NCBI RefSeq assembly: GCF_041468085.1
Contig: NZ_CP121017.1
Span: forward strand, 4,685,501 to 4,749,500
Length of the DNA stretch: 64,000 nucleotides
Reading direction: 5' to 3'
From: Tistrella mobilis
Lineage (GTDB): Bacteria; Pseudomonadota; Alphaproteobacteria; Tistrellales; Tistrellaceae
Below, piece after piece: positions 26,440-39,047 of the stretch; position 1 is the first letter of the stretch, and the number at the start of each line of letters is the position of its first letter. Under the pieces are notes generated by a model. That model saw only the letters and a program-made list of their open reading frames with translations. It did not search any database and was not told the DNA's origin. The position numbers were made by a program, and so were the translations under genes.

Positions 26440-27354
26440 ATGCACGATACAGCCTTCATCGCCCTCGACTGGGGCACCAGCAGTTTCCGGCTCTGGCTGA
26501 TCGGCCATGACGGCCGGGTGCTCGCCGGACGCCGCAGCGCCGAGGGCATGACCACGGCCGCCGCAACCGGTTTCGAGGCGGTGCTTGAAGGCCACCTCGC
26601 CGATCTGGGCGTGCCCGCCGCGGTGCCGGCGCTCGCCTGCGGCATGGTCGGTGCCCGCCAGGGCTGGGTGGAGGCCGGCTATATCGACACGCCCGCCCGG
26701 CTGGCCGGATTGGCGGCCGGTGCGGTGCGCGTACCCGGCATCGCCCGCGATGTCCGCATCCTGCCCGGCATCGCCCGGCGCGATCCGGCCGCACCCGACG
26801 TGATCCGTGGCGAGGAGACCCAGATCCTGGGCGCCCTCTCTGCCCACGGCCTGGATGACGCCACCGTCTGCATGCCCGGCACCCATTCGAAATGGGGCCG
26901 GGTCGCGGACGGCCGGCTCAACGCCTTCAGCACCTTCATGACCGGCGAGCTTTTTGCCGCCGTCACCGGCCACACCATCCTCGCCCATGCGGTGGCCGGC
27001 GCCCCCGAGGACGAGGATATGGAGGCCTTTCGCCAGGCCGTCGCCACGGCCCTCGCCGCACCGGCGCGGATCGCCAACCTGCTGTTCCAGGTCCGCAGCG
27101 GCCAGTTGTTGTTCGGCCGGGGGGCCGCAGCTGCGCGGGAGACGATCTCGGGCAGCCTGATCGGGCTCGAAATCGCCGGCGGCCACACGGCCGATGGCAG
27201 CGATCTGGTGCTGATCGCCTCTGGGCACCTCGCCCGGCTCTATGGCGTGGCGCTCGGCGTGGCGGGCCTGCCCCATCGGGTGATCGATGCCGATGCCGCC
27301 GTGCTGGGCGGCCTCTCGCTTGCCGCCCGCAGCCTCTGGCCATCGCGTATCTGA
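26440..27354 (+). CDS. dgoK: 2-dehydro-3-deoxygalactonokinase
   Basis: This 304-residue kinase phosphorylates 2-keto-3-deoxygalactonate in the De Ley-Doudoroff galactose route. The N-terminal FIALDWGTSSFRLWLIGHDG is the ASKHA phosphate loop. MVGARQGWVEAGYIDTPA, VIRGEETQILGAL, VCMPGTHSKWGRV and FSTFMTGELFAAVTGHTILAH are DgoK signatures. It is followed after 43 bases by the aldolase DgoA. The galactonate dehydratase and regulator are not nearby, so the set is partial here. Confidence 0.93.
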   Translation: MHDTAFIALDWGTSSFRLWLIGHDGRVLAGRRSAEGMTTAAATGFEAVLEGHLADLGVPAAVPALACGMVGARQGWVEAGYIDTPARLAGLAAGAVRVPGIARDVRILPGIARRDPAAPDVIRGEETQILGALSAHGLDDATVCMPGTHSKWGRVADGRLNAFSTFMTGELFAAVTGHTILAHAVAGAPEDEDMEAFRQAVATALAAPARIANLLFQVRSGQLLFGRGAAAARETISGSLIGLEIAGGHTADGSDLVLIASGHLARLYGVALGVAGLPHRVIDADAAVLGGLSLAARSLWPSRI

Positions 27355-27397
27355 CGGTCGAAAATCTGACCGGCCCCCACCGACGGAGATCTGCCTG

Positions 27398-28030
27398 ATG
27401 GACCGCATTCCCTTTCCGCCGATGGATCGGCCGCTGATCGCCATCCTGCGCGGCATCCAGCCCCACGAAACCGAAGCGGTGGTGACAGAGCTGATCGAGG
27501 CCGGGCTGACCGCGATCGAGATCCCGCTGAACTCGCCCGATCCCTTCCGCTCGATCGGGATCGCGGCGCGGCTGGCGCCCGACCATGTGATCGTCGGTGG
27601 CGGCACGGTCCTCACCCCGGCCGATGTCGCCCGCCTGCACGCGGCCGGCGGCCGGCTGCTGGTCACCCCCAACAGCGACCCGGTGGTGATCCGCACCGCC
27701 CATGGTCTCGGCATGGTCTCGATGCCGGGCGTGTTCACCGCCACCGAGGCGCTCGCTGCCGCGGCCGCCGGCGCCACCGGCCTCAAATTCTTCCCGGCCA
27801 GCGTGCTCGGCCCTCAGGGCATCAACGCCATCCGCGCGATCCTGCCGCCGGAACTGGTGATCGCCGCGGTGGGTGGCGTCTCCGACCGCAATTTCGCCGA
27901 TTACATGTCGGCCGGCATCACCGCCTTCGGCCTTGGCACCAGCCTCTACAGGCCGGGCATGACGGCGGCGGATGTCCGCGCCCGTGCCGATGCCACCATC
28001 GCCGCCTACGACGCCTGCCGCGGCGGTTGA
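27398..28030 (+). CDS. dgoA: 2-dehydro-3-deoxy-6-phosphogalactonate aldolase
   Basis: This 210-residue class I aldolase cleaves KDPGal to pyruvate and glyceraldehyde 3-phosphate. The motifs are PLIAILRGIQPHETEAVV (catalytic Glu region), VIVGGGTVLTPADVARLHAAGGRLLVTPN and GLKFFPASVLGPQGI with the Schiff-base lysine. It ends with GTSLYRPGMTAADVRARA. It is co-directional with dgoK and converges on the methanobactin operon: its stop is directly adjacent to the mbnC stop on the other strand. Confidence 0.93.
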   Translation: MDRIPFPPMDRPLIAILRGIQPHETEAVVTELIEAGLTAIEIPLNSPDPFRSIGIAARLAPDHVIVGGGTVLTPADVARLHAAGGRLLVTPNSDPVVIRTAHGLGMVSMPGVFTATEALAAAAAGATGLKFFPASVLGPQGINAIRAILPPELVIAAVGGVSDRNFADYMSAGITAFGLGTSLYRPGMTAADVRARADATIAAYDACRGG

Positions 28031-28621
28031 TCACAGCGGCAGATCCCGCCAGCCGGGGAAATGGTCCAGCGACCAGGTGGTGGTCGTGAACCAGCCGAAG
28101 GGGGTTGCCGGGTCGGGCAGGGGGTCTTCCAGCTCCAGGGTCTCGATCTCGCGCCCGCCTTCAAGATCGGCGGGCTTCCAGCCGGCCACCAGCGGCAATG
28201 GCCCGCGATCGGCGCTCCGGGTGCCGATCACCAGCCCCACGGCCGGGCTGCGATCGGTCACCGCCCAGCGTGCCGCCGCGGCCCCGATCAGGGTCAGGCG
28301 CAGGTCGTCGTCCACCCGGTCGCGAAACCCTGAGCCCTGCAGCCAGACATCCACCCAGAGATAATACGTCCAGTCGAAACTCAGCCCGCGCTCGGCCGCA
28401 AAGGCCATGAAGGGGCGGAAGATACTCATGCCGTCCGACGGTTGGCCATCCTCGCCGTCCAGCCTCAACAGTCCCGGGCAGATGTCGAACAGGGTGTGCC
28501 AGTAGATCCTGAGGCTGGTATCCACCCTGACCCAGGCCCGCGAGCCGACGCCCAGTTCGTCATGCCGCGCCGGCACGGTCAGATGGTCGAGCAGGTCGCT
28601 GTCGATCCGCCGCTCAGACAT
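28031..28621 (-). CDS. mbnC: Methanobactin biosynthesis partner protein MbnC
   Basis: This 196-residue protein is the partner of MbnB; the MbnBC complex converts Cys residues of the precursor to oxazolone/thioamide pairs. It matches MbnC as I remember it: RVDTSLRIYWHTLFDICPGLL near residues 32-52, then FRPFMAFAAERGLSFDW and YYLWVDVWLQGSGFRDR. The C-terminal half is less conserved (TDRSPAVGLVIGTRSADRGPL). It lacks obvious metal sites and probably recognises the leader peptide. The start ATG at 28621 overlaps the mbnB end by eight bases, indicating coupled translation. It is the last gene of the operon and converges on dgoA. Confidence 0.9.
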   Translation of the reverse strand: MSERRIDSDLLDHLTVPARHDELGVGSRAWVRVDTSLRIYWHTLFDICPGLLRLDGEDGQPSDGMSIFRPFMAFAAERGLSFDWTYYLWVDVWLQGSGFRDRVDDDLRLTLIGAAAARWAVTDRSPAVGLVIGTRSADRGPLPLVAGWKPADLEGGREIETLELEDPLPDPATPFGWFTTTTWSLDHFPGWRDLPL

Positions 28622-29420
28622 GGGCCGGCTCCCGCCCCATCACCGCACGCAGCGTATCGATATCGGCGATGATCCGATCCTCGTCCAGGTCGTCGTCGCG
28701 CTCATAGGTGATGGTGGCTTCGGGGTCGGTCACCAGCGCACGGCAAAGGGCCAGGGCCGCGCGGGTATCGGCCGCCAGCGCCCGGTCATGGGTGTCGAGC
28801 ACGATCGGCGGCTGGCCGACCGAGTGGTCATAGCCGGCGACATGAAACTGCCGGGCACTGCGGATCACCTCTGTCCAGGCCTCGAACGGCAGGCCGCAAT
28901 TATGGGTCGCACAGACCGCGTTCGAGACGTCGAACAGCACCGTGCAGCCGGTCCGTGCGGTCAGGCGCCGGAAGAAATCCGGCGCATCCCGCCCGCCATC
29001 CATGATCGAGGGATAGTTTTCAAAAGCGATGGTGCAGCCCAGCCGGTCCTGCCAGCGCGCCACCCGGTCCGCCACCCGCTCGAACGCGCCCGGATAGTCG
29101 ATCTCGGCCAGATGCAGCAGATGCCGGCCCCGATGGGTGAAGCGGGCGATGTGGTCCGACACATAGATCGGCCGGGTTTCGCGGATGATCGCCGTCAGCC
29201 GCATGGCCAGCTCGTCCAGCTCCGCCTCGGGCCGTTCCATGAATTTCGAGAACATGATGTGCAGCCCCACCGGGGCATCGAAGGCGGCCGCGATCTGCGC
29301 CGGCGGCACCGCCAGGAAATTGTCGACCAGCAGCTCGACATAGTCGATCCGCCCGGCCGCAATCAGCCGCCGCACCATCGGTGCGGTTGCCCCCAGGGTG
29401 AAGTTGAAGCCGATCCGCAA
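28614..29420 (-). CDS. mbnB: Methanobactin biosynthesis oxidase MbnB (MNIO / DUF692)
   Basis: This 268-residue TIM-barrel multinuclear non-haem iron oxidase should turn precursor Cys residues into oxazolone-thioamide pairs with O2. Metal-ligand motifs include His54 (LHIMFSK), Asp89-His90 (VSDHI), Glu134 (FENYPSIMDG), DVSNAVCA, FHVAGY, DTHD and TYERD. RIGFNFTLG and EIDYPGAF match MbnB as remembered from Methylosinus. I chose the TTG at 29420 because it gives the family N-terminus and has GGAGG seven bases upstream. The frame is open up to 29690, but that part covers the precursor gene and is not protein-like. Bufferin-type and other MNIOs are less likely given MbnC next door. Confidence 0.93.
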   Translation of the reverse strand: MRIGFNFTLGATAPMVRRLIAAGRIDYVELLVDNFLAVPPAQIAAAFDAPVGLHIMFSKFMERPEAELDELAMRLTAIIRETRPIYVSDHIARFTHRGRHLLHLAEIDYPGAFERVADRVARWQDRLGCTIAFENYPSIMDGGRDAPDFFRRLTARTGCTVLFDVSNAVCATHNCGLPFEAWTEVIRSARQFHVAGYDHSVGQPPIVLDTHDRALAADTRAALALCRALVTDPEATITYERDDDLDEDRIIADIDTLRAVMGREPAHV

Positions 29421-29443
29421 GGCGGCACCTCCATCGTCAGGGA

Positions 29444-29470
29444 CGGGGAGCGGCATCCGGCCGCTCCCCG
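29444..29470 (-). promoter_or_regulatory. Intercistronic hairpin between mbnA and mbnB
   Basis: CGGGGAGCGGC - ATCCG - GCCGCTCCCCG is a perfect 11-bp GC-rich stem, 15 bases after the mbnA stop and 23 bases before the mbnB start. No T run follows it on the minus strand. A hairpin placed here commonly gives partial termination or protects the precursor mRNA, so that the peptide is made in excess over its enzymes. Confidence 0.65.
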
Positions 29471-29485
29471 CCCGGTCATGTCCGA

Positions 29486-29575
29486 TCAGCCGGCAACGGC
29501 ACAGATGGTGGCGCAGCGGGCACCGGCGCGACCGGTAACCTGCAGGGTCTTGCGGGCGTTGATCTTGATCGACAT
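29486..29575 (-). CDS. mbnA: Methanobactin precursor peptide MbnA
   Basis: This 29-residue precursor is too short for usual gene calling. The leader (residues 1-19) is basic, begins MSIKI and ends GRAGA, matching the MbnA pattern of an IKI start and a GRAxA region before the core. The core is RCATICAVAG, with Cys21 and Cys25 separated by three residues as in the two-ring methanobactin of Methylocystis SB2 (remembered core RCASTCAA). MbnBC would convert Arg-Cys and Ile-Cys into oxazolone/thioamide pairs that together bind one Cu(I). A strong AAGGAGA site lies upstream of ATG 29575. mbnB and mbnC follow. Only two cysteines are present, so no extra disulfide is possible. Confidence 0.9.
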   Translation of the reverse strand: MSIKINARKTLQVTGRAGARCATICAVAG

Positions 29576-29744
29576 CGGATTGTCTCCTTCTTGGCAATAA
29601 TAATTGGATCCGGATGATGTATTCATCCGGGACTTTCATCTGCATCAGACGCTGAATCGTCTTTTGATGCTTCCTGGACTCTATGTTCATCCTGCTTTTG
29701 AGTCGACTCGTATTTTCGTCATGCGGTGAGTCTTCAAAATTAAT
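29576..29744 (-). promoter_or_regulatory. A/T-rich promoter region of mbnABC with dyads
   Basis: This spacer between mbnH and mbnA is much richer in A/T than its surroundings and contains no gene. It holds a perfect dyad CCGGATGA - TGTAT - TCATCCGG (29610-29630), 35-55 bases before the mbnA start, and a palindrome GAGTCGACTC (29700-29709). I cannot point to a confident -35/-10 pair. The dyad is a candidate operator for a copper-responsive regulator. There is no clear terminator after mbnH, so transcription may also read through from the receptor genes. Confidence 0.55.
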
Positions 29745-30863
29745 TCAATCCTGGGGCGCGGCATGCCGTGGGTCGGTCAGAAACTGCGCATCGGTCAGGG
29801 TCTTCAGGAAGGCGACGATGTCGGCGCGGTCGCGTGCGTCCAGATCGATGCGGACGATCAGATCGCTCTTCCACGGATTGCGCCGGCCGTCGCCCCGGTC
29901 GGGGCCGCCGGTGATCTGCCGGCCGCCGGCGGCATAGATCTCCAGCACCTCTTCCAGCGTGCCGACGCTGCCGTCATGCATATAGGGGGCGGTGACCGCG
30001 ACATTGCGCAGCGATGGCGCCCGAAAGGCGCCCATATCCCCGGCGCGGCCGGTCATCTCGATCAGCCCGCGATCCGTGGCCGGATAGGCGCCGGCCCCGT
30101 CCAGGTCATAGAGTCCGGTGTTGTGGAAGGCGCGGTCGACCACGCGGCTGCGCGCGTGCACCACCTGATCGTTGAAGTTGAAGCTGCCATGGCAGTGATG
30201 GCATTCGGCCTTTTCGCCGAAGAACAGGTCATGGCCGCGCCGCTCGGCCTCGGTGAAGCGCTCCTCGCCCGCCAGCCAGCGGTCATAGCGCGACGAGAAC
30301 GAGACCAGGCTGCGTTCGTAGGCGGCGATCGCGCGGATGATCGATGTCAGGCTCACCGGTGCCGCGACCTCCGGAAAAGCGGTCCGGAAGGCGGCGACCA
30401 TCTCAGGGTCGGACCGGAAGCGGTTCAGCACCGTCTCGCGATTGGCATCGGTCAGGCCCATCTCGACCGGGTCGGTGCCGAACAGCGGTACGGCCATCTG
30501 CGCCTCCAGCGTGACCAGGGCCGGGTTGGCCCAGGTCAGGCTGGCATTCCAGGCGACATTGGCCAGCCCCTGGGCATTGCGCCGCACGACATCACCGGCA
30601 GACCCCACCGGATGGGCACGGCCATCGGCGAAGCCCAGCGCCTGGAGATGACAGCCCGAACAGGCGAGCCGGCCATTGCCCGACAGTCTGGGGTCGTGGA
30701 ACAGCCGCCGGCCAAGCTCCACCTTGGCCGGGGTCATGGGGTTGTCGGCCGGCACACGCGGCGGCGGGACATGGGACGGCAGATCCCAGACCCAGCCCTC
30801 CGCCCGGGCGCCGCCGGCCACCGCCAGCGAAAGCGCGGCCAGGGCCAGCAGCCGCCGGATCAT
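29745..30863 (-). CDS. mbnH: MbnH-type di-haem cytochrome c peroxidase/MauG family protein
   Basis: This 372-residue periplasmic protein has a signal peptide to about residue 21 (ARA-EG) and two haem c motifs, C68SGCH72 and C221HHCH225. LGRRLFHDPRLSGNGRLACSGCH, SLRNVAVTAPYMHDGSVGTLEEVLEIYAAGG and a C-terminal DIVAFLKTLTD are typical of the MauG/cytochrome c peroxidase superfamily. MbnH enzymes are known to oxidise a tryptophan of MbnP to kynurenine, creating a copper site. Its start overlaps the mbnP stop (ATGA), as expected for such a pair. Annotation as plain cytochrome c peroxidase is possible, but the context argues for MbnH. Confidence 0.9.
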   Translation of the reverse strand: MIRRLLALAALSLAVAGGARAEGWVWDLPSHVPPPRVPADNPMTPAKVELGRRLFHDPRLSGNGRLACSGCHLQALGFADGRAHPVGSAGDVVRRNAQGLANVAWNASLTWANPALVTLEAQMAVPLFGTDPVEMGLTDANRETVLNRFRSDPEMVAAFRTAFPEVAAPVSLTSIIRAIAAYERSLVSFSSRYDRWLAGEERFTEAERRGHDLFFGEKAECHHCHGSFNFNDQVVHARSRVVDRAFHNTGLYDLDGAGAYPATDRGLIEMTGRAGDMGAFRAPSLRNVAVTAPYMHDGSVGTLEEVLEIYAAGGRQITGGPDRGDGRRNPWKSDLIVRIDLDARDRADIVAFLKTLTDAQFLTDPRHAAPQD

Positions 30864-31717
30864 TTCTCCGCCACCCGAAAGGCGGCGGCGGCGCTCCCGG
30901 CCAGCCCCAGCCGTTCAAAAAGCGCCGGGCAGTCGGCATCGTCGGGGGCGCTCATGCAGCCCACCGCGCCCCCCTGGTCGCGGGTCAGATCGGTGGCGGC
31001 GAACAGCACGGCCAGATCCAGCACCACGCGCGCACGGGCGGGATCGAAGGGCCTTGTCGTTACCGCCGATCGGTTGGGCCGGTCGCAGCGGACGATCTCA
31101 CCCGTGACCGGGTTGCCGGTGCAGCCGGTGGCGCCCAGATGCAGGAACCAGGTGGTGGCGCGGCCGCCATCCGGCCGCGCCACCCCGCCCTCGGGCAGAA
31201 GTTCCAGCTTCACGTATTTGCGCCCGGCCTGCCATCCCCAGCCCATGGCCGCCAGATCAAGCGGCGGCGGCGCCAGGTCGGTGGCGGTATGGTTCAGCCC
31301 CGGCGGCACGCCCAGGGTGAAGGCCAGCTGCCAGGGGCCGGCCCCGGCCCCGTCGTCCACCCGGCCGGTCACGACGGTATTGGTCTCGGGCGTGCCCTCG
31401 CGGCACGCGCCGGTGGCGTCTTCGGCATCGATCAGGGCAACGCCGTCATGCTGCCAGAGCGTTTCGTCCAGCATGACCGGCCAGGCTTTGCCGGCCGCAT
31501 CGATCAGGGCCAGGTCGTGGAGATAAAAGCGGGCATCGCGCAGGCCGGCTGCAACCGCAGGCCTGCCCAGCGCTGCGGCAGGGGGGGCGCAGCCGACCGG
31601 CGCCGCCCCGGCGACGATGCCGAAGCCGATGGTGACGCTCCGCTCCGCCGCCAGGACAGGCCCGGCGGCGAGCAGAAGCAGAAGGATGGCAAGGCGGGTA
31701 AGGCGGCAGGTCATCAT
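30860..31717 (-). CDS. mbnP: MbnP-type copper-binding periplasmic protein
   Basis: This 285-residue exported protein of the metallo-mystery-pair (four-Cys motif) family has a signal peptide to about residue 23 (VLAAE). Family features are GLRDARFYLHDLALIDAAGKAWPV, an AGRKYVKLEL strand, TTWFLHLGATGCTGNPVTGEIVRC and a terminal Cys pair GCMSAPDDADCPALFERLGL. In MbnP the copper site uses histidines and a kynurenine formed from Trp by MbnH. Candidate Trp residues occur at ETLWQHDG and MGWGWQAG. It starts eleven bases after the receptor stop and overlaps mbnH by four, so the three form one unit. It may accept copper released from methanobactin. Confidence 0.88.
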   Translation of the reverse strand: MMTCRLTRLAILLLLLAAGPVLAAERSVTIGFGIVAGAAPVGCAPPAAALGRPAVAAGLRDARFYLHDLALIDAAGKAWPVMLDETLWQHDGVALIDAEDATGACREGTPETNTVVTGRVDDGAGAGPWQLAFTLGVPPGLNHTATDLAPPPLDLAAMGWGWQAGRKYVKLELLPEGGVARPDGGRATTWFLHLGATGCTGNPVTGEIVRCDRPNRSAVTTRPFDPARARVVLDLAVLFAATDLTRDQGGAVGCMSAPDDADCPALFERLGLAGSAAAAFRVAEK

Positions 31718-31728
31718 GAGCCCCCGCC

Positions 31729-33783
31729 TCAGAACCGTGCGGTCAGGCGCAGATTGATGCTGCGGCCTTCCTCGTAGGCATAGGTTTCGGCCAGCGACTG
31801 GCGGTAGGTGACATAGGCCTCGTCGAAGAGGTTGGTCACCGCCACATCCACGCGGTACCAGTCGCGATCGAAGGCCACGCCCAGGTCGTGCACGGCATAG
31901 CCGCTGCGCCGCCGGAGCGGGGTCGAGTCGTAATCCTGGGCCGCCGCATAGATGCCGGCATACCAGAGCCGCCAGTCCTGGTTCACGGCATAGCCGATCC
32001 CGGCCGCGACCTTGTCCGGCGGCGCGTAGAGCTGGGCGCCGGTATCGGCATCCTTGGCACGCAGCTTCGAATAGGCGAGGGAGACATCCACCGGCCCGGC
32101 CTGATAGCTGGCCTCGGCCTCGATGCCGCGGCGCCTGGCTTCGGCGACGTTGCGGCGCTGGAAGATCAACCCGGTGCCCGAGAAGGGCGGGGTGCGGGTG
32201 AAGGTGCCGACCACCTGGCTGTCGATCAGATCGTCGACCCGCTCGTGAAACACGGTCGCCTTGAAGCGCAGCGCATCGCCAGGCCAGGCGAGATCGTCGA
32301 AGGCGAGCGTGAAACCGGCCTCGGTGGTATGGGCAGTCTCGGGCTGAAGTTGGGGATTGGGGATGAAATTGAACAGCGCCCGGGTGGCCGTCAGGTTCGG
32401 ATACATCTCGGCCAGGGTCGGGGCGCGGAAGGCCTCGCCATAGCCGACGAACAGGCCCAGCGCCGGCGTCGCCTGCCAGTGCAGCGCCAGCTTGGGCGAC
32501 AGCCGGTCGTGGGACGAGGATGCCTGGCCTTCCGGGTCGATTTCATAGCGGTCGTGCCGCAGGGCCCCGATCAGGGTCCAGTCCTCGAAGATCGTCAGCT
32601 CGTCCTGGATGAAGACGCCGGTGGCGGTCAGATCGCCGTCCGGCAGCACCACATTCGCCGAACCCGCCGTCCGGTTGGTGCTGGTGTCGACATAATGGTC
32701 CACACCATAGGTCAGCTTATGCGCCAGCGCCGCCCCGGTCTCGAACCGGCTGGTGTTCTGAAGCGACAGGCCGCGGGTCTCGGTTTCGGTCGAGGTGGCG
32801 TCGAAGGGCGGGGTTTCGCGGCTCGTCGTGTCGAAGCGCAGTTTCGTGTAATAGAGCTGCAGGCTGCCGTCCAGCCAGCTGCGATCCGGGTCGGCGAAGG
32901 ACCAGCGGCCGGAATACTGATCCTGGCGACGCTCCAGCAGCTGCGCATAGGGGAAAAGGGCGCTGCCGCCGGGATTGTTCGGCCCGGTCAGATCGTCGTC
33001 GAAACGCTGATACGAGATGTCGATCCGATGGTCGGGGCCAAGATCGACCCCGCCCTTGAACAGGCCCGAGAGCAGATCGCCTTCGTTCTCCAGCTTCTCG
33101 CCGGTGCCGGTGCGGATGTTGTCGGTGCTGCGATAGGTCAGCGCGGCCAGCAGGTCGCCATCCGCCGTGCGGGTGGTGCCGGCCACATGGCTCGAAAATG
33201 CGTGATTGCCGCTCCGCCAGCCCAGGCTCGCCCGGCCGCCGGTGGTTTCCCCCGGTGCCAGCAGATCCTCGGGCTCCAGGGTGCGGATCGCCATCACGCC
33301 GCCCAGCCCGCCGCTGCCATAGCTCGCGGAAACCGGGCCGCGCACCACGTCGATGGCGCCGATCATGTCGGGATCGATCAGCAGCGGCGAGAACACGCCG
33401 CCCTCGTTGTTCCGCCGCACCCCGTCGACCGACAGAATGATCCGTGGGCCGATGAAGCCGCGGATCGACGGGTTCTGCGCGGCAGGGCGCGGGCCGCCGC
33501 CCATGTCGACATTGGGCAGGCGGCGCAGGATGGTGAGGTCAGCCGCCTGGGCATCATCCAGCGCCGCACGATCGACCTGAGAGACGGAAGCCGGCAGATC
33601 GAAGGCCGAGGCTTCGGTGCGGGTGGCGGTGACGGTGATCGCCTCAAGCCGGCTGACCGGAGCGGCGGTCTCTTCGGCACGGGCAGGAGCGGGCTGGACG
33701 GCCAGGCCGAGCAGAAGGGTGGCGGCGGTGGTGCCGGCAAGCGGCAGTCGGCCGCGCATCGAACATGCGGCAGGTCGGGTCAT
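31729..33783 (-). CDS. mbnT: TonB-dependent outer-membrane receptor, putative MbnT
   Basis: This is a 684-residue receptor. The signal peptide ends near residue 36 (ARAEE). A TonB box-like LEAITVTATRTEAS leads to a plug with NPSIRGFIGPRIILSVDGVRRNNEGG and VVRGPVSASYGSGGLGGVMAI. A 22-strand barrel and terminal phenylalanine (LRLTARF) follow. There is no N-terminal STN signalling domain, in keeping with the absence of FecI/FecR genes. Barrel motifs (GYGEAFRAPTLAEMYPN, NPQLQPETAHTTEAGF) resemble haem/siderophore receptors. Co-transcription with mbnPH and position before mbnABC suggest it imports copper-methanobactin. ATG 33759 is an alternative start. Confidence 0.8.
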   Translation of the reverse strand: MTRPAACSMRGRLPLAGTTAATLLLGLAVQPAPARAEETAAPVSRLEAITVTATRTEASAFDLPASVSQVDRAALDDAQAADLTILRRLPNVDMGGGPRPAAQNPSIRGFIGPRIILSVDGVRRNNEGGVFSPLLIDPDMIGAIDVVRGPVSASYGSGGLGGVMAIRTLEPEDLLAPGETTGGRASLGWRSGNHAFSSHVAGTTRTADGDLLAALTYRSTDNIRTGTGEKLENEGDLLSGLFKGGVDLGPDHRIDISYQRFDDDLTGPNNPGGSALFPYAQLLERRQDQYSGRWSFADPDRSWLDGSLQLYYTKLRFDTTSRETPPFDATSTETETRGLSLQNTSRFETGAALAHKLTYGVDHYVDTSTNRTAGSANVVLPDGDLTATGVFIQDELTIFEDWTLIGALRHDRYEIDPEGQASSSHDRLSPKLALHWQATPALGLFVGYGEAFRAPTLAEMYPNLTATRALFNFIPNPQLQPETAHTTEAGFTLAFDDLAWPGDALRFKATVFHERVDDLIDSQVVGTFTRTPPFSGTGLIFQRRNVAEARRRGIEAEASYQAGPVDVSLAYSKLRAKDADTGAQLYAPPDKVAAGIGYAVNQDWRLWYAGIYAAAQDYDSTPLRRRSGYAVHDLGVAFDRDWYRVDVAVTNLFDEAYVTYRQSLAETYAYEEGRSINLRLTARF

Positions 33784-33919
33784 GGGGTGCGGATCCGAAG
33801 GGCAGCGGGCGTGCGGCAGCCCGGGCGCGGATCTGTGCGCAGCCCATGGGCCTGCCGGACCGGACGCCCCGTCCAGCCGCCGGACAAGCGGCCGACAGGG
33901 GCGGCTCTTGGAGGTCGGA

Positions 33920-34372
33920 TCAGGCCCCGATCGGGGGTGCCCTGGCCTTGAGTGTGGCCAGATACCAGCCGGCCGCGATCAGCCCGCCGGGCAGGCGCGT
34001 GGCATCGTGAAGCCGCACCAGCCGTGGTGCCGGCGCCAGGATCGGCAGCGGCGGCGTGGAACTGCCCTGCACCAGCAGGCAGAGCGGGCAGTCATCGGCC
34101 GATGGCAGCGCCTGATCGGGCCGGCCATCGGCATCGCTATCCGCGGCCTGGTCGTCCCCGGCCTGATCGGCCAGAACCAGCCGCACGCCTTCGGCGGTGC
34201 AGATCGGCGTCAGCAGCCCGAAGGCCATGGCCGGGGCATAGATCGACCAGATCATCATCTGGAACAGGAAGGCGAGCGCGCCCGCGAGCAGCCCCGCCCG
34301 GCGCAGCCGCTCCCGAAGCCGACCGCGCGGCCCCGTGCTCCGATGAGGATATGAAACCCGGCGATGCTGCAT
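33920..34372 (-). CDS. DUF2946-like membrane-anchored protein
   Basis: This 150-residue protein has one N-terminal hydrophobic helix (GLLAGALAFLFQMMIWSIYAPAMAFG). A Cys near the start of the periplasmic part (PICTAEG), a DCPLCLLVQG motif and a C-terminal TLKARAPP follow. DCPLC and the R-x-PP end are the signatures of DUF2946 proteins, which often accompany copper-transport genes and TonB receptors. It is 136 bases upstream of the receptor on the same strand and is probably the first gene of the operon. Copper binding by the CxxC is inferred. The exact start (34372) is uncertain because no good ribosome site is visible. Confidence 0.7.
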   Translation of the reverse strand: MQHRRVSYPHRSTGPRGRLRERLRRAGLLAGALAFLFQMMIWSIYAPAMAFGLLTPICTAEGVRLVLADQAGDDQAADSDADGRPDQALPSADDCPLCLLVQGSSTPPLPILAPAPRLVRLHDATRLPGGLIAAGWYLATLKARAPPIGA

Positions 34373-34449
34373 CCGATGACGCTACACCGGCTCGCGTCCT
34401 GCGCACAGGGCTTTTGCATCATGCGACCCATCGTCGCAGATGGCACCCC

Positions 34450-34974
34450 TCAGGTGGGCAGGCCCAGGCGGATGCGCATGGCGGTTTCGGAAACCTCCAG
34501 CCGGGTCGCCAGATCACGGATCTCCGTCACGCCCTCGCTGTTGAGCGCCCGGATCAACGGCCAGGGCATCAGCAGCTGTGCCGCGAAACGGTTGGCCTCG
34601 GTTTCGATCGCCCCTGAGAGATGGCTGCGATAGAAGGCATCGTCCTGAACACCTCCTGTCGCGACGTCCCGATGCAGCAGGAAATGCGCGATTTCATGGG
34701 CAATGGTGAAACGGCGTCGGACTTTGACATGCCGCGCATTGACCACGATCGCCCAGCCAGAGGGGCCGCCCCGTTCGGCATCCCGCACCAGCTTGCCCGA
34801 AAGCGACTCCGGCAATGGCTCGGTCCAGACCCGCAGCCCAAGATCCCGTGCCAGCGCAACGATCTTGACCGGTGCCGACTGCTGATGGCGGGACACGACG
34901 TCAGGCACCGCCACGTCCGCAGTGACCGGCGCATCCAAGGCGGCAGGCCACTCCCGCACGGCATCTTCAATCAT
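34450..34974 (-). CDS. ImmA/IrrE-family metallopeptidase
   Basis: This 174-residue zinc peptidase has the HExxH motif in RRRFTIAHEIAHFLLHRD and the downstream Glu region ETEANRFAAQLLMPWPLIRAL, both characteristic of ImmA/IrrE. Relatives cleave phage- or stress-type repressors. I chose ATG 34974 because it overlaps the upstream gene by eight bases (ATGATTGA). The longer frame to 35046 starts with a very basic tail. There is no adjacent XRE repressor, which such peptidases usually target; instead the partner is a small membrane protein. Confidence 0.85.
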   Translation of the reverse strand: MIEDAVREWPAALDAPVTADVAVPDVVSRHQQSAPVKIVALARDLGLRVWTEPLPESLSGKLVRDAERGGPSGWAIVVNARHVKVRRRFTIAHEIAHFLLHRDVATGGVQDDAFYRSHLSGAIETEANRFAAQLLMPWPLIRALNSEGVTEIRDLATRLEVSETAMRIRLGLPT

Positions 34975-35335
34975 CCGACGTGGTCTCCTGAGGTCCGGGC
35001 GCGCCCGGTCTCTGTTCTTCTGCGGCAACGACATTGGCCGAGGCAACTCCCGCGATTCCGCGGTCGATCAGAGCTGCCATGCGCGCCTGGAATTCGGGAC
35101 CGTCAAGATAGGCCCTGACGGCGCTGCCCAGGGCCTTCTCGGCAACCATCTCCGCCTGGCGTGCCGCCTTACGAGTAATATAGGTGGCACCGAACAGCGC
35201 CACCACCGCTATCAGAAGCGCCACCGCCCCAAGCACGATGGTCGCCGCGGTCATGACGATGGTGGCGGTCTCCACCGAACTGAACTGGGGTGCACTGCGC
35301 AGAACGGCACCGGCAGCCGCCTCGATCGAGTCCAA
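34967..35335 (-). CDS. Small single-helix membrane protein, function unknown
   Basis: This 122-residue protein starts at TTG 35335, which has GGGAGG six bases upstream. One long hydrophobic helix (about 27-50: IVMTAATIVLGAVALLIAVVALFGATYIT) is followed by a positively charged amphipathic segment (RKAARQAEMVAEKALGSAVRAYLDGPEFQARMAALID). I do not recognise a family. It overlaps the ImmA/IrrE gene by eight bases, so the two are probably expressed together, perhaps as a defence or addiction-like pair. An A/T-rich promoter region precedes it. Confidence 0.6.
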   Translation of the reverse strand: MDSIEAAAGAVLRSAPQFSSVETATIVMTAATIVLGAVALLIAVVALFGATYITRKAARQAEMVAEKALGSAVRAYLDGPEFQARMAALIDRGIAGVASANVVAAEEQRPGAPGPQETTSDD

Positions 35336-35457
35336 GCTCGCCTCCCCTCAGGATCTACGAGGGGCAGTCTCCGTAAACGGATCGCGAACATCAAGTTCAT
35401 TTGATGATATTCAACTATAAGATTTAAATTTTTATTTATCAAATAATTGTAGGGATG
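35336..35457. promoter_or_regulatory. A/T-rich promoter region before the membrane protein/ImmA pair
   Basis: About 60 bases (35395-35455) are dominated by A and T (ATTTAAATTTTTATTTATC), in sharp contrast to the GC-rich chromosome. It lies between the stop of the AraC gene and the TTG start at 35335. It should contain the promoter of the pair and may mark recently acquired DNA. Confidence 0.5.
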
Positions 35458-36444
35458 TCAAGCCACTGGCGGCGTACTCCGCACCGCCCCCGGCGACTGC
35501 CCCGTCACCCGCTTGAACGCCCGGCTGAACGCCGCCTGCGAGGCATAGCCCAGCCGGTCGGCGACCGTATCGATCGGCAGCCGGTCGCGGCCGATCCAGC
35601 GGATGGCAAGGCGCATGCGCAGGCCGGCCAGATAGCGCAGCGGCGTGGTGCCGGTGGCGGCCAGGAAACGTTCGGCGAACACCGAGCGCGAGGCGCCGGC
35701 AAGACCGGCCAGCTCCGCCACCGTCCAGTCGCGACCGGGATCGCGATGCAGGGCCGTCAGCGCCCGGCCCAGCCGCGGATCGCGCAGCGCCTGCACCCAG
35801 CCCGAGGCCTCGCCACAGCCGTTCTCCACCCAGCCGCGCAGGATCGAGGCCGCGACCACATCGGCCAGCCGCGCCAGGATGGCGGCAAAGCCGGCCCGTT
35901 CGGCGCAGGCCTCGCGCTCCATCGCCTCCAGCATCGCCAGGATTTCGGGCGTGCGGTCGATCAGGGTGGCGACCAACATCACCTCGGGCATCAGCGCCAC
36001 CAGCGGCTGCATACCGCCCAGATCGAAGCTCATGCAGCCGCTGAACACCACCGCCCCGGCGGTGGGGCAGCACTCCGCGTCGCAGGCGCGCACCGCCTCC
36101 ACCTGCGCACAGAGCGTCCGGGCGGCGAAATCGTCGAGATCCTGTCCAGGCTGGCCGGGATCGGAGAGCAGGGCATGGATGCCGCCGCGGGGCAGCAGGG
36201 CCGCATCGCCGGGCCCCAGCCGCAGCAGCTCGCCCGAGGGGCTTTGCAGGAAGACCTCGCCGCGGGCGACGAAATGGAACTGCGCCCGCCCCTCTTCGCT
36301 GCGGCCATCATCAGAGAGGTTTTTCTCCGGCGGCCCGAACCGCACCCCGCGCGGGCGGGCGATCTGGATCCGCCGATAGCGGATGCCGTCGAGCCGCATG
36401 CCCATCAGCAGCTCGCTTATCGGGTCGGACAGAAGGTCGGCCAT
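35458..36444 (-). CDS. AraC-family regulator with cupin N-domain
   Basis: This 328-residue regulator has an N-terminal cupin-type sensor (FHFVARGEVFLQSPSGELLRLGPGDAALLPRGGIHAL). The C-terminal tandem HTH is WTVAELAGLAGASRSVFAERFLAATGTTPLRYLAGLRMRLA, then IDTVADRLGYASQAAFSRAFKRVTGQSPGAVR. This matches the Cupin_6/AraC group that usually controls a neighbouring transporter. Divergent orientation with an MFS gene (110 bases between starts) fits that pattern, so it likely regulates efflux. The inducer is unknown. Confidence 0.92.
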   Translation of the reverse strand: MADLLSDPISELLMGMRLDGIRYRRIQIARPRGVRFGPPEKNLSDDGRSEEGRAQFHFVARGEVFLQSPSGELLRLGPGDAALLPRGGIHALLSDPGQPGQDLDDFAARTLCAQVEAVRACDAECCPTAGAVVFSGCMSFDLGGMQPLVALMPEVMLVATLIDRTPEILAMLEAMEREACAERAGFAAILARLADVVAASILRGWVENGCGEASGWVQALRDPRLGRALTALHRDPGRDWTVAELAGLAGASRSVFAERFLAATGTTPLRYLAGLRMRLAIRWIGRDRLPIDTVADRLGYASQAAFSRAFKRVTGQSPGAVRSTPPVA

Positions 36445-36554
36445 GGTTCCGGACTTTCGATCAAATCTTCCGGAGGAGATGGCATGGATCGTCCGGAGAG
36501 TCCAGCCTACCTTCCGATCTCCCTTCCCAACCTCTCCCCGTCGACGAGGATCAG

Positions 36555-37772
36555 ATGATGAACGAGGCTGCAGCGACGGCCGACCGGGCCGGCAGCGCTG
36601 CCCCCGCCTGGGGGGCCGTGTTCTCCATGGCGCTCGGCGTCTTCGGACTGGTGACCGCCGAATTCCTGCCCGCCAGCCTGCTGACGCCCATGGCCGCCGA
36701 ACTGGGCGTGACCGAGGGCCTGGCCGGGCAGGCGGTCACCGCCACCGCCGCCATCGGCCTCATCGCCAGCCTGCTGGTTCCGGCCGCGACCCGCGGGCTG
36801 GACCGGCGGGTGGTGCTGCTCGCCTTCTCAGCCCTGCTCGTCGCCTCCAACCTGCTTGCGGCGATGGCCTCGACCCTGCCCGTGCTGATCGCGGCCCGTC
36901 TGGTGCTGGGCGTGGCACTCGGCGGGTTCTGGGCCATGTCGACCGCGACCGTGATGCGGCTGGTACCGGAAGCCGCGATCCCGAAGGCGCTGTCGATGGT
37001 CTTCGGCGGCGTTTCTGCCGCCACCGTCGCCGCGGCCCCGCTCGGCAGTTTCCTGGGCGATCAGCTGGGCTGGCGGGCGGTCTTCCTGATGGCCGCCGCC
37101 CTCGGCCTCGCCGCCTTTCTGGTCCAGTACGCCACCCTGCCGCGCATGGCCGCCTCGGCGACCACCCGGCTCGGCACCCTGATGCTGGTGCTGCGCCGGC
37201 CCCGGGTCGGGGCCGGGATGATCGCGGTGCTGATGGTCTTCACCGGCCATTTCGCCGTCTTCACCTATATCCGGCCCTTCCTGGAGACGGTCACCGGCGT
37301 GGGCATCGAAGGCGTGTCGGCCATCCTGCTCGGCTTCGGCCTCGCCAACTTCCTCGGCACCGGCCTCGCGGGGCCGGCCATCGCCCGCAACCTGAAGGCG
37401 GTGCTGGTGGCGATGCCGGTGCTGATGATCGTGTTGGGCCTGGGGCTGGTGCTGGCCGGCGGCACCGTCTTCGGCGATGCGGTGATGCTGGCCCTCTGGG
37501 GCATGGCCTTCGGCGCGGTGCCGGTTGCCTGGTCCACCTGGCTGACCCGGGCAGCCCCCGACGAGGCCGAAAGCGGCGGCGGGCTGATCGTGGCCGCCAT
37601 CCAGCTCGCCATCGCCACCGGTGCCGCCGCGGGCGGGGTGATCTTCGACCTGAACGGCGCACCGGGGGTCTTCCTGGCGGCGACCCTGGTTCTGGCCGCC
37701 GCCGCCCTGCTGATCCTGACCCGGGTCAGGATCGGTCCGCGGGCCGGGGTCAGTCCGCAGGCAGGGATCTGA
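36555..37772 (+). CDS. MFS efflux transporter (AraJ/YdeA-like)
   Basis: This 405-residue transporter has twelve hydrophobic segments. It has FGLVTAEFLPASLLTPMAAELGVTEGLAGQAVTATAAIGLIASLL at the start and the signature helix ARLVLGVALGGFWAMSTATVMRLVPEAAIPKALSMVFGGVSAATVAAAPLGSFLG. These match the arabinose-efflux/purine-efflux MFS group. It should export a sugar, nucleoside or drug by proton antiport. It is divergent to the AraC gene and its last 23 bases overlap the convergent PfkB kinase gene. Confidence 0.9.
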   Translation: MMNEAAATADRAGSAAPAWGAVFSMALGVFGLVTAEFLPASLLTPMAAELGVTEGLAGQAVTATAAIGLIASLLVPAATRGLDRRVVLLAFSALLVASNLLAAMASTLPVLIAARLVLGVALGGFWAMSTATVMRLVPEAAIPKALSMVFGGVSAATVAAAPLGSFLGDQLGWRAVFLMAAALGLAAFLVQYATLPRMAASATTRLGTLMLVLRRPRVGAGMIAVLMVFTGHFAVFTYIRPFLETVTGVGIEGVSAILLGFGLANFLGTGLAGPAIARNLKAVLVAMPVLMIVLGLGLVLAGGTVFGDAVMLALWGMAFGAVPVAWSTWLTRAAPDEAESGGGLIVAAIQLAIATGAAAGGVIFDLNGAPGVFLAATLVLAAAALLILTRVRIGPRAGVSPQAGI

Positions 37773-38622
37773 GCACGCTGCCTTCGGTCTGCACCGCCTG
37801 CGCACCGAAGGCACTGCCCCGCGCCAGCGCCTGGCCCATGTCCAGCCCACGCAGCCAGGCATCGGTCAGCCCGCCGGCAAAGGCGTCGCCGGCGCCGGTG
37901 GTGTCGATCACGTGGTCGACCATCCGGGCCGGGCAGCGGATCCGCCGGCCATCGGCGGCAAAGGCTTCCGAGCCCTCGGCACCGTGGGTGACCACCACCC
38001 AGTCCAGCCGGTCGCCGGCAAGCCGCCTGGCTGCGGCGAGCGGATCCGCCGCCGCAGCCGGCGCCAGATCGTCGATCGAGGCCACGAAAACCTGTGCCGG
38101 CCAGCTGCCGGCGGGCAGGGCCGGCTCGTGTTCCGCCGGCGGAATCTGGGCGATCGCCGGCAGGCCACGGGCGGCAGCAGCCACCAGCAACTGCCCGGCA
38201 GCCGGATTGCGGCTGTTCAGGAACAGGGCATCCACGCCGTCGAGCACGCTTTCGGGCGGTACCCAGGCCAGATGGTGGCCGATCTTCAGGATGGTGCGCT
38301 CGCCTTCGGGATCGAGCAGAAGCATGGTTTCGGGCGAGCGGTCGAGATTGCGGTCGAGCTTCGACACATCCAGCCCGCAGGCGGTGACATCCGCCACCAG
38401 CCGGTCGCCCAGCGCATCATGGGCGACGCGGGTGATCAGCTGGGCGTGATGGCCGGCAAGGGCCAGGGCGGCGCCGACATTGGCGCCCGACCCGCCGATG
38501 CGCGGCCCTTCATCCACCCCGCGCGGCCGCCCGCCCGAAACGATGGGCCGGTCCAGACGGATCACCCGATCGGCATTCAGGCTGCCGACGACGGCGATAC
38601 GGGCAGGGAAGGGGGCAACCAT
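37750..38622 (-). CDS. PfkB-family sugar kinase
   Basis: This 290-residue ribokinase-like enzyme has ARIAVVGSLNADRVIRLDRP and GPRIGGSGANVGAALALAGHHAQLITRVAHDALG. The PfkB C-signature VIDTTGAGDAFAGGLTDAWLRG contains the catalytic Asp. The substrate is unknown (ribose-, fructose- or nucleoside-like). ATG 38622 was preferred over an ATG at 38652: AGGAGG lies eleven bases upstream and the first strand follows closely. It converges on the MFS gene and follows the XRE regulator on the same strand. Confidence 0.9.
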   Translation of the reverse strand: MVAPFPARIAVVGSLNADRVIRLDRPIVSGGRPRGVDEGPRIGGSGANVGAALALAGHHAQLITRVAHDALGDRLVADVTACGLDVSKLDRNLDRSPETMLLLDPEGERTILKIGHHLAWVPPESVLDGVDALFLNSRNPAAGQLLVAAAARGLPAIAQIPPAEHEPALPAGSWPAQVFVASIDDLAPAAAADPLAAARRLAGDRLDWVVVTHGAEGSEAFAADGRRIRCPARMVDHVIDTTGAGDAFAGGLTDAWLRGLDMGQALARGSAFGAQAVQTEGSVLRSLPAD

Positions 38623-38648
38623 GGGCAGGACATCCTCCTGAGGTCGGG

Positions 38649-39047
38649 TCAATCGGGTGACCGGTCTTCGGTCTGATCAGTCTGACCACCGGAACGCGTC
38701 GCGTCGAGGATCGCGAGCAGCCGGTCGAGGGTCGGCCCGTCGAGGGTTGCGATCCGCTGCGCCACCAGATTGGCGAGGCGGGTGGCCCGGGGGTCGAGAC
38801 CGCCGGTCTCCACCGTCACCTTCGGGTCGGAAAGCCCGGCCAGCCGCTCCAGTTCCTCGGCCTCGTCCCAGATGATGTTGAAATAGGTGCAGATCTGGAT
38901 CAGCAGCGACCGGGTCGGCACGCCGCGCCGCCCGTGTTCCAGGGCCGAGAGATAGGCGTTGGAGATCTGCAGGTCACGGGCCATCTGCTTCTGGCTGATC
39001 CCGCGCGCGGCCCGAAGCTGGCGCAGGCGCTCCCCGAAAGGCGTCAC
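38649..39047 (-). CDS. XRE-family helix-turn-helix regulator
   Basis: This 132-residue protein has an N-terminal HTH_3 domain (FGERLRQLRAARGISQKQMARDLQISNAYLSALEHGRRGVPTRSLLIQICTYFNIIWDEAEEL). A short C-terminal tail follows that may mediate dimerisation. The start overlaps the Smr gene stop by four bases. Alphaproteobacteria frequently have this small regulator right after mltA-smr in the origin region. The target is unknown. Confidence 0.9.
   Translation of the reverse strand: MTPFGERLRQLRAARGISQKQMARDLQISNAYLSALEHGRRGVPTRSLLIQICTYFNIIWDEAEELERLAGLSDPKVTVETGGLDPRATRLANLVAQRIATLDGPTLDRLLAILDATRSGGQTDQTEDRSPD

Follow-up and report, generated by a model that had tools for sequence, protein, structure and literature searches.

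The open reading frame at positions 29486–29575 on the minus strand of the window (the whole 64,000-nucleotide stretch of DNA analyzed here, from a genome of 6.3 Mb) is very probably a working methanobactin precursor gene, mbnA, belonging to a Tistrella methanobactin cluster. This reading, which was also that of the original prediction, holds because the encoded peptide passed the MbnA models TIGR04071 and PF25751, because mbnB and mbnC lie next to it and genes of the mbnT, mbnP, and mbnH types lie upstream, and because the iron ligands of MbnB are kept; the core of the peptide is also the same in all three Tistrella genomes compared. The gene is a known kind of methanobactin precursor, a close relative of which was reported in 2013.

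The peptide of 29 residues, MSIKINARKTLQVTGRAGARCATICAVAG, starts at an ATG at 29575 and consists of the leader MSIKINARKTLQVTGRAGA and the predicted core RCATICAVAG, the cleavage site and core boundary being placed by analogy with characterized Methylocystis cores. As had been claimed, its translation has cysteines at residues 21 and 25, with three residues between them, and a ribosome site precedes it: the Shine-Dalgarno sequence AAGGAG (29584–29589, minus strand) lies 8 nt before the ATG and is spaced identically in the two other Tistrella genomes (G001 and G002). An upstream ATG in the same frame would give a product of 46 residues, but a 1-nt indel between both ATGs breaks that longer frame in the other two genomes, and the 29-residue start is therefore favored. 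The MbnA peptide scored 46.5 bits against TIGR04071 (cut-off 24, E=2.1e-12) and 35.7 bits against PF25751 (cut-off 27). It was the sole TIGR04071 match above the cut-off among the 150 of 241 first-look candidates scored in its own genome, where the next-best matches reached 13.9 and 13.0 bits. Weak matches at E<=1 were obtained in nine of 14 control genomes, none of them over the cut-off, and at E<=1e-4 its own genome alone matched among 398 genomes of the phylum, a search in which at most 20 first-look candidates were scored per genome and misses are possible. Residues C21-A22-T23 of the core form a C(G/A/S)(S/T) motif, of which MbnA cores carry at least one according to the rule given in the description of these cores by Kenney and Rosenzweig (2013, PMC3621798).

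Directly downstream, mbnB (28614–29420, minus strand) encodes an MNIO iron enzyme that scored 409 bits against TIGR04159 (cut-off 325). Its start is most likely the TTG at 29420, 7 nt after a GGAGG; an alternative in-frame ATG at 29456 falls inside the hairpin between mbnA and mbnB and is not found at the same place in relatives. The eight residues given as iron ligands of VcMbnB (PMC8888699), H55, H91, E135, D165, N168, H194, D209, and E238, are all identical in the aligned MbnB of the window, and so is VcMbnB H211. Solved relatives of MbnB are found in 7fc0, 7tcr, and 7dz9, and those of MbnC, the leader-binding partner of MbnB, are 7fc0_F and 7tcr_C. The mbnC gene (28031–28621, minus strand) scored 261.6 bits against TIGR04160 (cut-off 185) and also matched TIGR04061; its end abuts that of a convergent aldolase-family gene (28030), so the cluster stops at 28031. 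On the other side of mbnA are mbnH (29745–30863), for a MauG-like di-heme enzyme with 472 bits against TIGR04039 (cut-off 363), and mbnP (30860–31717), for the copper-binding partner of MbnH with 256 bits against TIGR04052 (cut-off 140). MbnP and MbnH have a role in periplasmic copper handling. A TonB-dependent receptor gene (31729–33783), recognized by PF00593 and PF07715, follows and is the mbnT candidate by virtue of its position and of the 59% identity of its product to the receptor at the same place in the mbn cluster of A. cavernae. The further models that this receptor passed are of the heme/hemoglobin and lactoferrin type (TIGR01785, TIGR01786) and the siderophore receptor model TIGR01783 stayed below its cut-off, which calls for caution about the putative mbnT identity. 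All six genes are on the minus strand, in the order T-P-H-A-B-C.

Upstream of the receptor gene, positions 33920–34372 encode a DUF2946 protein. Relatives of it (36% and 43% identical) are located upstream of the receptor in both Azospirillum mbn clusters examined, and the protein may represent a component of these clusters that has yet to be named. A second MNIO-family stretch, at 1101649–1102140 of the same contig, scored 51 bits, far under the MbnB cut-off, and a similar stretch is present in both G001 and G002. The search for MbnB at class level gave matches at E<=0.001 in 142 of 385 genomes and matches over the cut-off in four; those below the cut-off are assumed to be other MNIO proteins.

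The comparison within Tistrella comprised the source genome, G001, and G002, the last of which was treated as T. mobilis KA081020-065. In all three, MbnB is over its cut-off and the same mbn cluster is present, with intact genes and high identity (98% for MbnB and 95% for MbnH). The MbnA peptides of the other two genomes are MSIKISARKTLQIAGRAGARCATICAVAG and MSIKISARKALQIAGRAGARCATICAVAG; the core RCATICAVAG is identical in the three and both cysteines are invariant. It had been suggested that the peptide be looked for beside mbnBC in relatives and that a lack of conservation there would speak against it; no such lack is seen. Between the source genome and G001, mbnA differs by eight nucleotides in seven codons. 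The 19 leader residues account for three amino-acid changes and two silent codons, and the ten core residues for two silent codons and no amino-acid change, a pattern that fits constraint on the core in numbers too small for proof. The same identity disposes of the proposal that Thr-Ile-Cys and the AVAG tail define a new variant: the core is common to the third Tistrella genome and to T. mobilis KA081020-065, the MbnA of which was reported in 2013. That report places strain KA081020-065 in Group III, with an MbnA having 'only two non-adjacent cysteines' (Kenney and Rosenzweig 2013, PMC3621798), and the core that we read from NC_017956 presumably matches the published T. mobilis MbnA letter for letter. 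The literature searched yielded no product of the Tistrella methanobactin cluster and no later work on it, nor any match to the core string or to the name 'TmMbnA'; PMC9303977 and PMC11002830, in their parts on Tistrella, concern tmo, another cluster, and not mbn.

A pathway for the peptide can be proposed from the studied relatives. The leader (residues 1–19) would dock on MbnC, and the iron center of MbnB would oxidize the Ile-Cys at Cys25 and the Arg-Cys at Cys21, turning each into an oxazolone/thioamide pair with a loss of 4 Da. Some protease would then cut after GRAGA, no dedicated one being recognized in the mbn cluster. The peptide derived from RCATICAVAG would exit by an exporter unlike MbnM, bind one Cu(I) through two nitrogens and two sulfurs, and return through the TonB receptor. 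In the solved MbnABC complexes, the leader is bound by MbnC, with the core inserted into the cavity of MbnB (PMC8888699). As described in the same paper, RrMbnBC acts on Cys21 or Cys25 of RrMbnA, with losses of 2 and 4 Da and a band near 335 nm, and is active on MbnAs of Groups I–V. Since RrMbnA also has its cysteines at 21 and 25, rings at Ile-Cys25 and Arg-Cys21 would be expected here by analogy. With 4 H lost at both cysteines, the calculated monoisotopic mass falls from 2959.60 to 2951.54 for the full precursor and from 963.46 to 955.40 for the core RCATICAVAG ([M+H]+ 956.41). We lean toward the formation of both rings on Tistrella MbnA, and two oxazolone/thioamide pairs giving one N2S2 Cu(I) site are plausible on the same analogy.

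The Tistrella cluster looks like a minimal mbnABC cluster. When MbnF of M. rosea was used as the query, the three Tistrella genomes gave weak, mostly partial matches (27–45% identity) and no orthologue; the best match in the source genome was 27% identical (E 2e-9). The same query found itself at 100%, a second Methylocystis genome at 67%, and a partial match of 30% in A. cavernae, and found none in R. rubra. According to PMC10167746, every operon with a known N-terminal pyrazinedione/imidazolone product contains mbnF, and the three with a known oxazolone lack it. Neither an aminotransferase (mbnN-like) nor a sulfotransferase (mbnS-like) domain was detected among the neighbors scanned at 26440–39047. 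The exporter ORFs of A. cavernae and M. rosea, named MbnM by their place after mbnC, had no match in any of the three Tistrella genomes or in R. rubra. As controls, the A. cavernae query recovered itself and Azospirillum B506 at 48%, and the M. rosea query itself, A. cavernae at 36%, and Azospirillum B506 at 33%. The MATE exporter MbnM, present in 13 of the operons in PMC3621798, is common but not universal. The Pfam MatE model scored 20.1 on the M. rosea exporter (cut-off 24.9) and did not report that of A. cavernae; in the source genome PF01554 gave nine matches in five MATE-type ORFs. Another exporter is thus possible, and the PF01554 search leaves the exporter unsettled because this model hardly detects the mbn exporter itself; the queries with the two exporter ORFs are the better guide.

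How else could the gene and its surroundings be read? Short ORFs are common, 14 of at least 20 residues overlapping 29300–29800, and a chance small ORF without a product might occupy the gap between mbnH and mbnB. Such a chance origin is ruled out by the 46.5-bit score against a curated model, by its being the only one above the cut-off among the 150 of 241 candidates scored in the genome, and by the invariance of ribosome site and core in relatives; the place directly before mbnB also speaks against it, and we give it practically no weight. Alternatively, the cluster may have lost its exporter and may no longer make an exported chalkophore, as the unmatched exporter queries in the three Tistrella genomes (with controls matched) and the convergent aldolase-family gene abutting mbnC could suggest. 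However, the genes are intact and conserved to the degree given above, the source genome has five other MATE-type ORFs, and R. rubra matches neither exporter although its MbnABC are functional in E. coli (PMC8888699). We therefore consider such a loss quite improbable.

A stronger contender accepts the peptide as a true MbnA but has MbnBC install one ring, on Cys25 or on Cys21, with the other cysteine staying a thiol or needing an enzyme encoded elsewhere, so that a one-ring ligand results. It is disputed whether a single MbnBC installs both rings, and the passages on ring formation in PMC8888699 and PMC8788703 conflict. In OB3b, the C-terminal ring requires MbnC and the N-terminal ring does not (PMC8788703), and Cys21 alone of the four cysteines of MtMbnA (OB3b) was found modified by MbnBC (PMC8888699). 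Although the crystal of RrMbnABC has the iron contacted by Cys25 only, mass spectrometry in the same paper showed modification by RrMbnBC at either Cys21 or Cys25. The missing mbnF orthologue in the three Tistrella genomes and the missing aminotransferase among the neighbors examined would also suit a single ring, but R. rubra, likewise without an mbnF match, keeps both cysteines, as do the three Tistrella genomes. A one-ring product is thus possible, if rather unlikely, and two rings are the reading that we retain.

Several candidate control elements accompany the gene. A GC-rich hairpin with a perfect stem of 11–12 bp lies between the mbnA stop and the mbnB start (29444–29470, minus strand). 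Because a T tract is missing, the hairpin may serve to shield the mbnA transcript or to reduce read-through. Its fold z is −2.63 in the source genome, and longer pieces folded from the two Tistrella relatives gave −3.68 and −3.18; the end pair is C-G in the source genome and T-A in both relatives, one compensatory change. Outside Tistrella, four of 15 loci have a perfect stem of 6 bp or more in the mbnA–mbnB gap and the other 11 have none, so such a hairpin is not general. In the gap between mbnH and mbnA, a 19-mer, AAAATACGAGTCGACTCAA, containing the palindrome GAGTCGACTC (29698–29716, minus strand), is a candidate operator or promoter element. With up to three mismatches allowed, it has one site per genome, with none mismatched, in all three Tistrella genomes, and it has one site in the window and none in 100 shuffles. 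Upstream of the mbnA ribosome site, an inverted repeat, CCGGATGA-ATACA-TCATCCGG (29609–29631, minus strand), is a candidate 5'-leader hairpin or operator; it was found in the terminator-like scan, where it is listed on the plus strand, and is kept with one change in G001 and G002. Conservation of these elements among Tistrella is weak evidence of function because close relatives share much sequence by descent. The sigma-70 scan returned one site, on the strand opposite to mbnA, so the mbnA promoter is unplaced. A joint reading, offered tentatively, would have MbnBC on its own, without MbnN, MbnF, or MbnM, make an Arg-Cys oxazolone as the N-terminal ring and the second ring at Ile-Cys, the mRNA hairpin between mbnA and mbnB set the ratio of precursor to enzyme, and a Tistrella-specific operator control the unit.

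The value of the finding is modest. The gene itself is not news, and its use lies in testing which enzymes make each ring. Since the cluster looks minimal, Tistrella mbnABC offers a natural and clean test case for the current controversy about whether MbnBC suffices for both rings. What decides between an oxazolone and a pyrazinedione/imidazolone at the N-terminal ring is also unsettled in the discussions of PMC8788703, PMC10167746, and PMC8888699, and Tistrella has a Methylocystis-like Arg-Cys N-terminus without an mbnF orthologue and with no aminotransferase among the cluster genes examined. A single structure of the Tistrella product would inform both ring number and ring type.

The wider comparison comprised 20 named mbn loci, in 17 of which MbnA could be read; none was read in L051, L052, or L058, the last having only 32 bases upstream. 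Among these 17, Ile before the second cysteine is peculiar to Tistrella: Thr or Ser fills this position in the other single-Cys cores; for doublet cores it is Ser or Cys, according to the pairing assumed for the cysteines. Cys-doublet cores (CCGSCC) occur in Azospirillum, Plasticicumulans, and a Chromatiales MAG, and single-Cys C-x3-C cores in Tistrella, Methylocystis, and Rugamonas. In the MbnB tree (22 of 23 rows, L046 being left out; midpoint root; Plasticicumulans on a long branch), Tistrella and Azospirillum split from the rest with support of 99/96. The type of core therefore does not seem to track the MbnB phylogeny, as Tistrella groups with the doublet-core Azospirillum yet has a C-x3-C core. 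Tistrella accordingly has the MbnB grouping of Group III but, with single cysteines at 21 and 25, not the Cys-doublet core; the account of Group III in PMC3621798 gives such a core to most members and names T. mobilis as the exception.

Closest to the cluster of the window is that of T. mobilis KA081020-065 (NC_017956), which has the identical core, the same gene order, and a 98% identical MbnB, and differs in four residues of the MbnA leader. Tistrella aside, the Azospirillum clusters (Group III) encode the closest MbnB in the 20 loci (60–64%), and A. cavernae shares the T-P-H-A-B-C order; unlike Tistrella, they have Cys doublets in the core and an exporter ORF after mbnC. Methylocystis SB2 and M. 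rosea (Group II, core RCASTCAATNG) share the Arg before the first cysteine and the C-x3-C spacing, whereas Tistrella has Ile instead of Thr before the second cysteine and the tail AVAG. MbnB of M. rosea is 56% identical, and Tistrella differs from it in having no mbnF orthologue and from Methylocystis Group II in having no sulfotransferase among the neighbors scanned. With MbnF, Methylocystis makes a pyrazinedione/imidazolone as the N-terminal ring, in contrast to the oxazolone that the joint reading would assign to Tistrella. The MbnA of Rugamonas rubra, MKIVIVKKVEIQVAGRTGMRCASSCGAKS, the structure of which was solved together with MbnBC (PDB 7fc0), differs in core and tail, and its MbnB is 56% identical; it nevertheless resembles Tistrella MbnA in its length of 29 residues, in Cys21 and Cys25, and in the Arg before Cys21, and, as in Tistrella, neither an mbnF orthologue nor a match to the two exporters was obtained in R. 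rubra.
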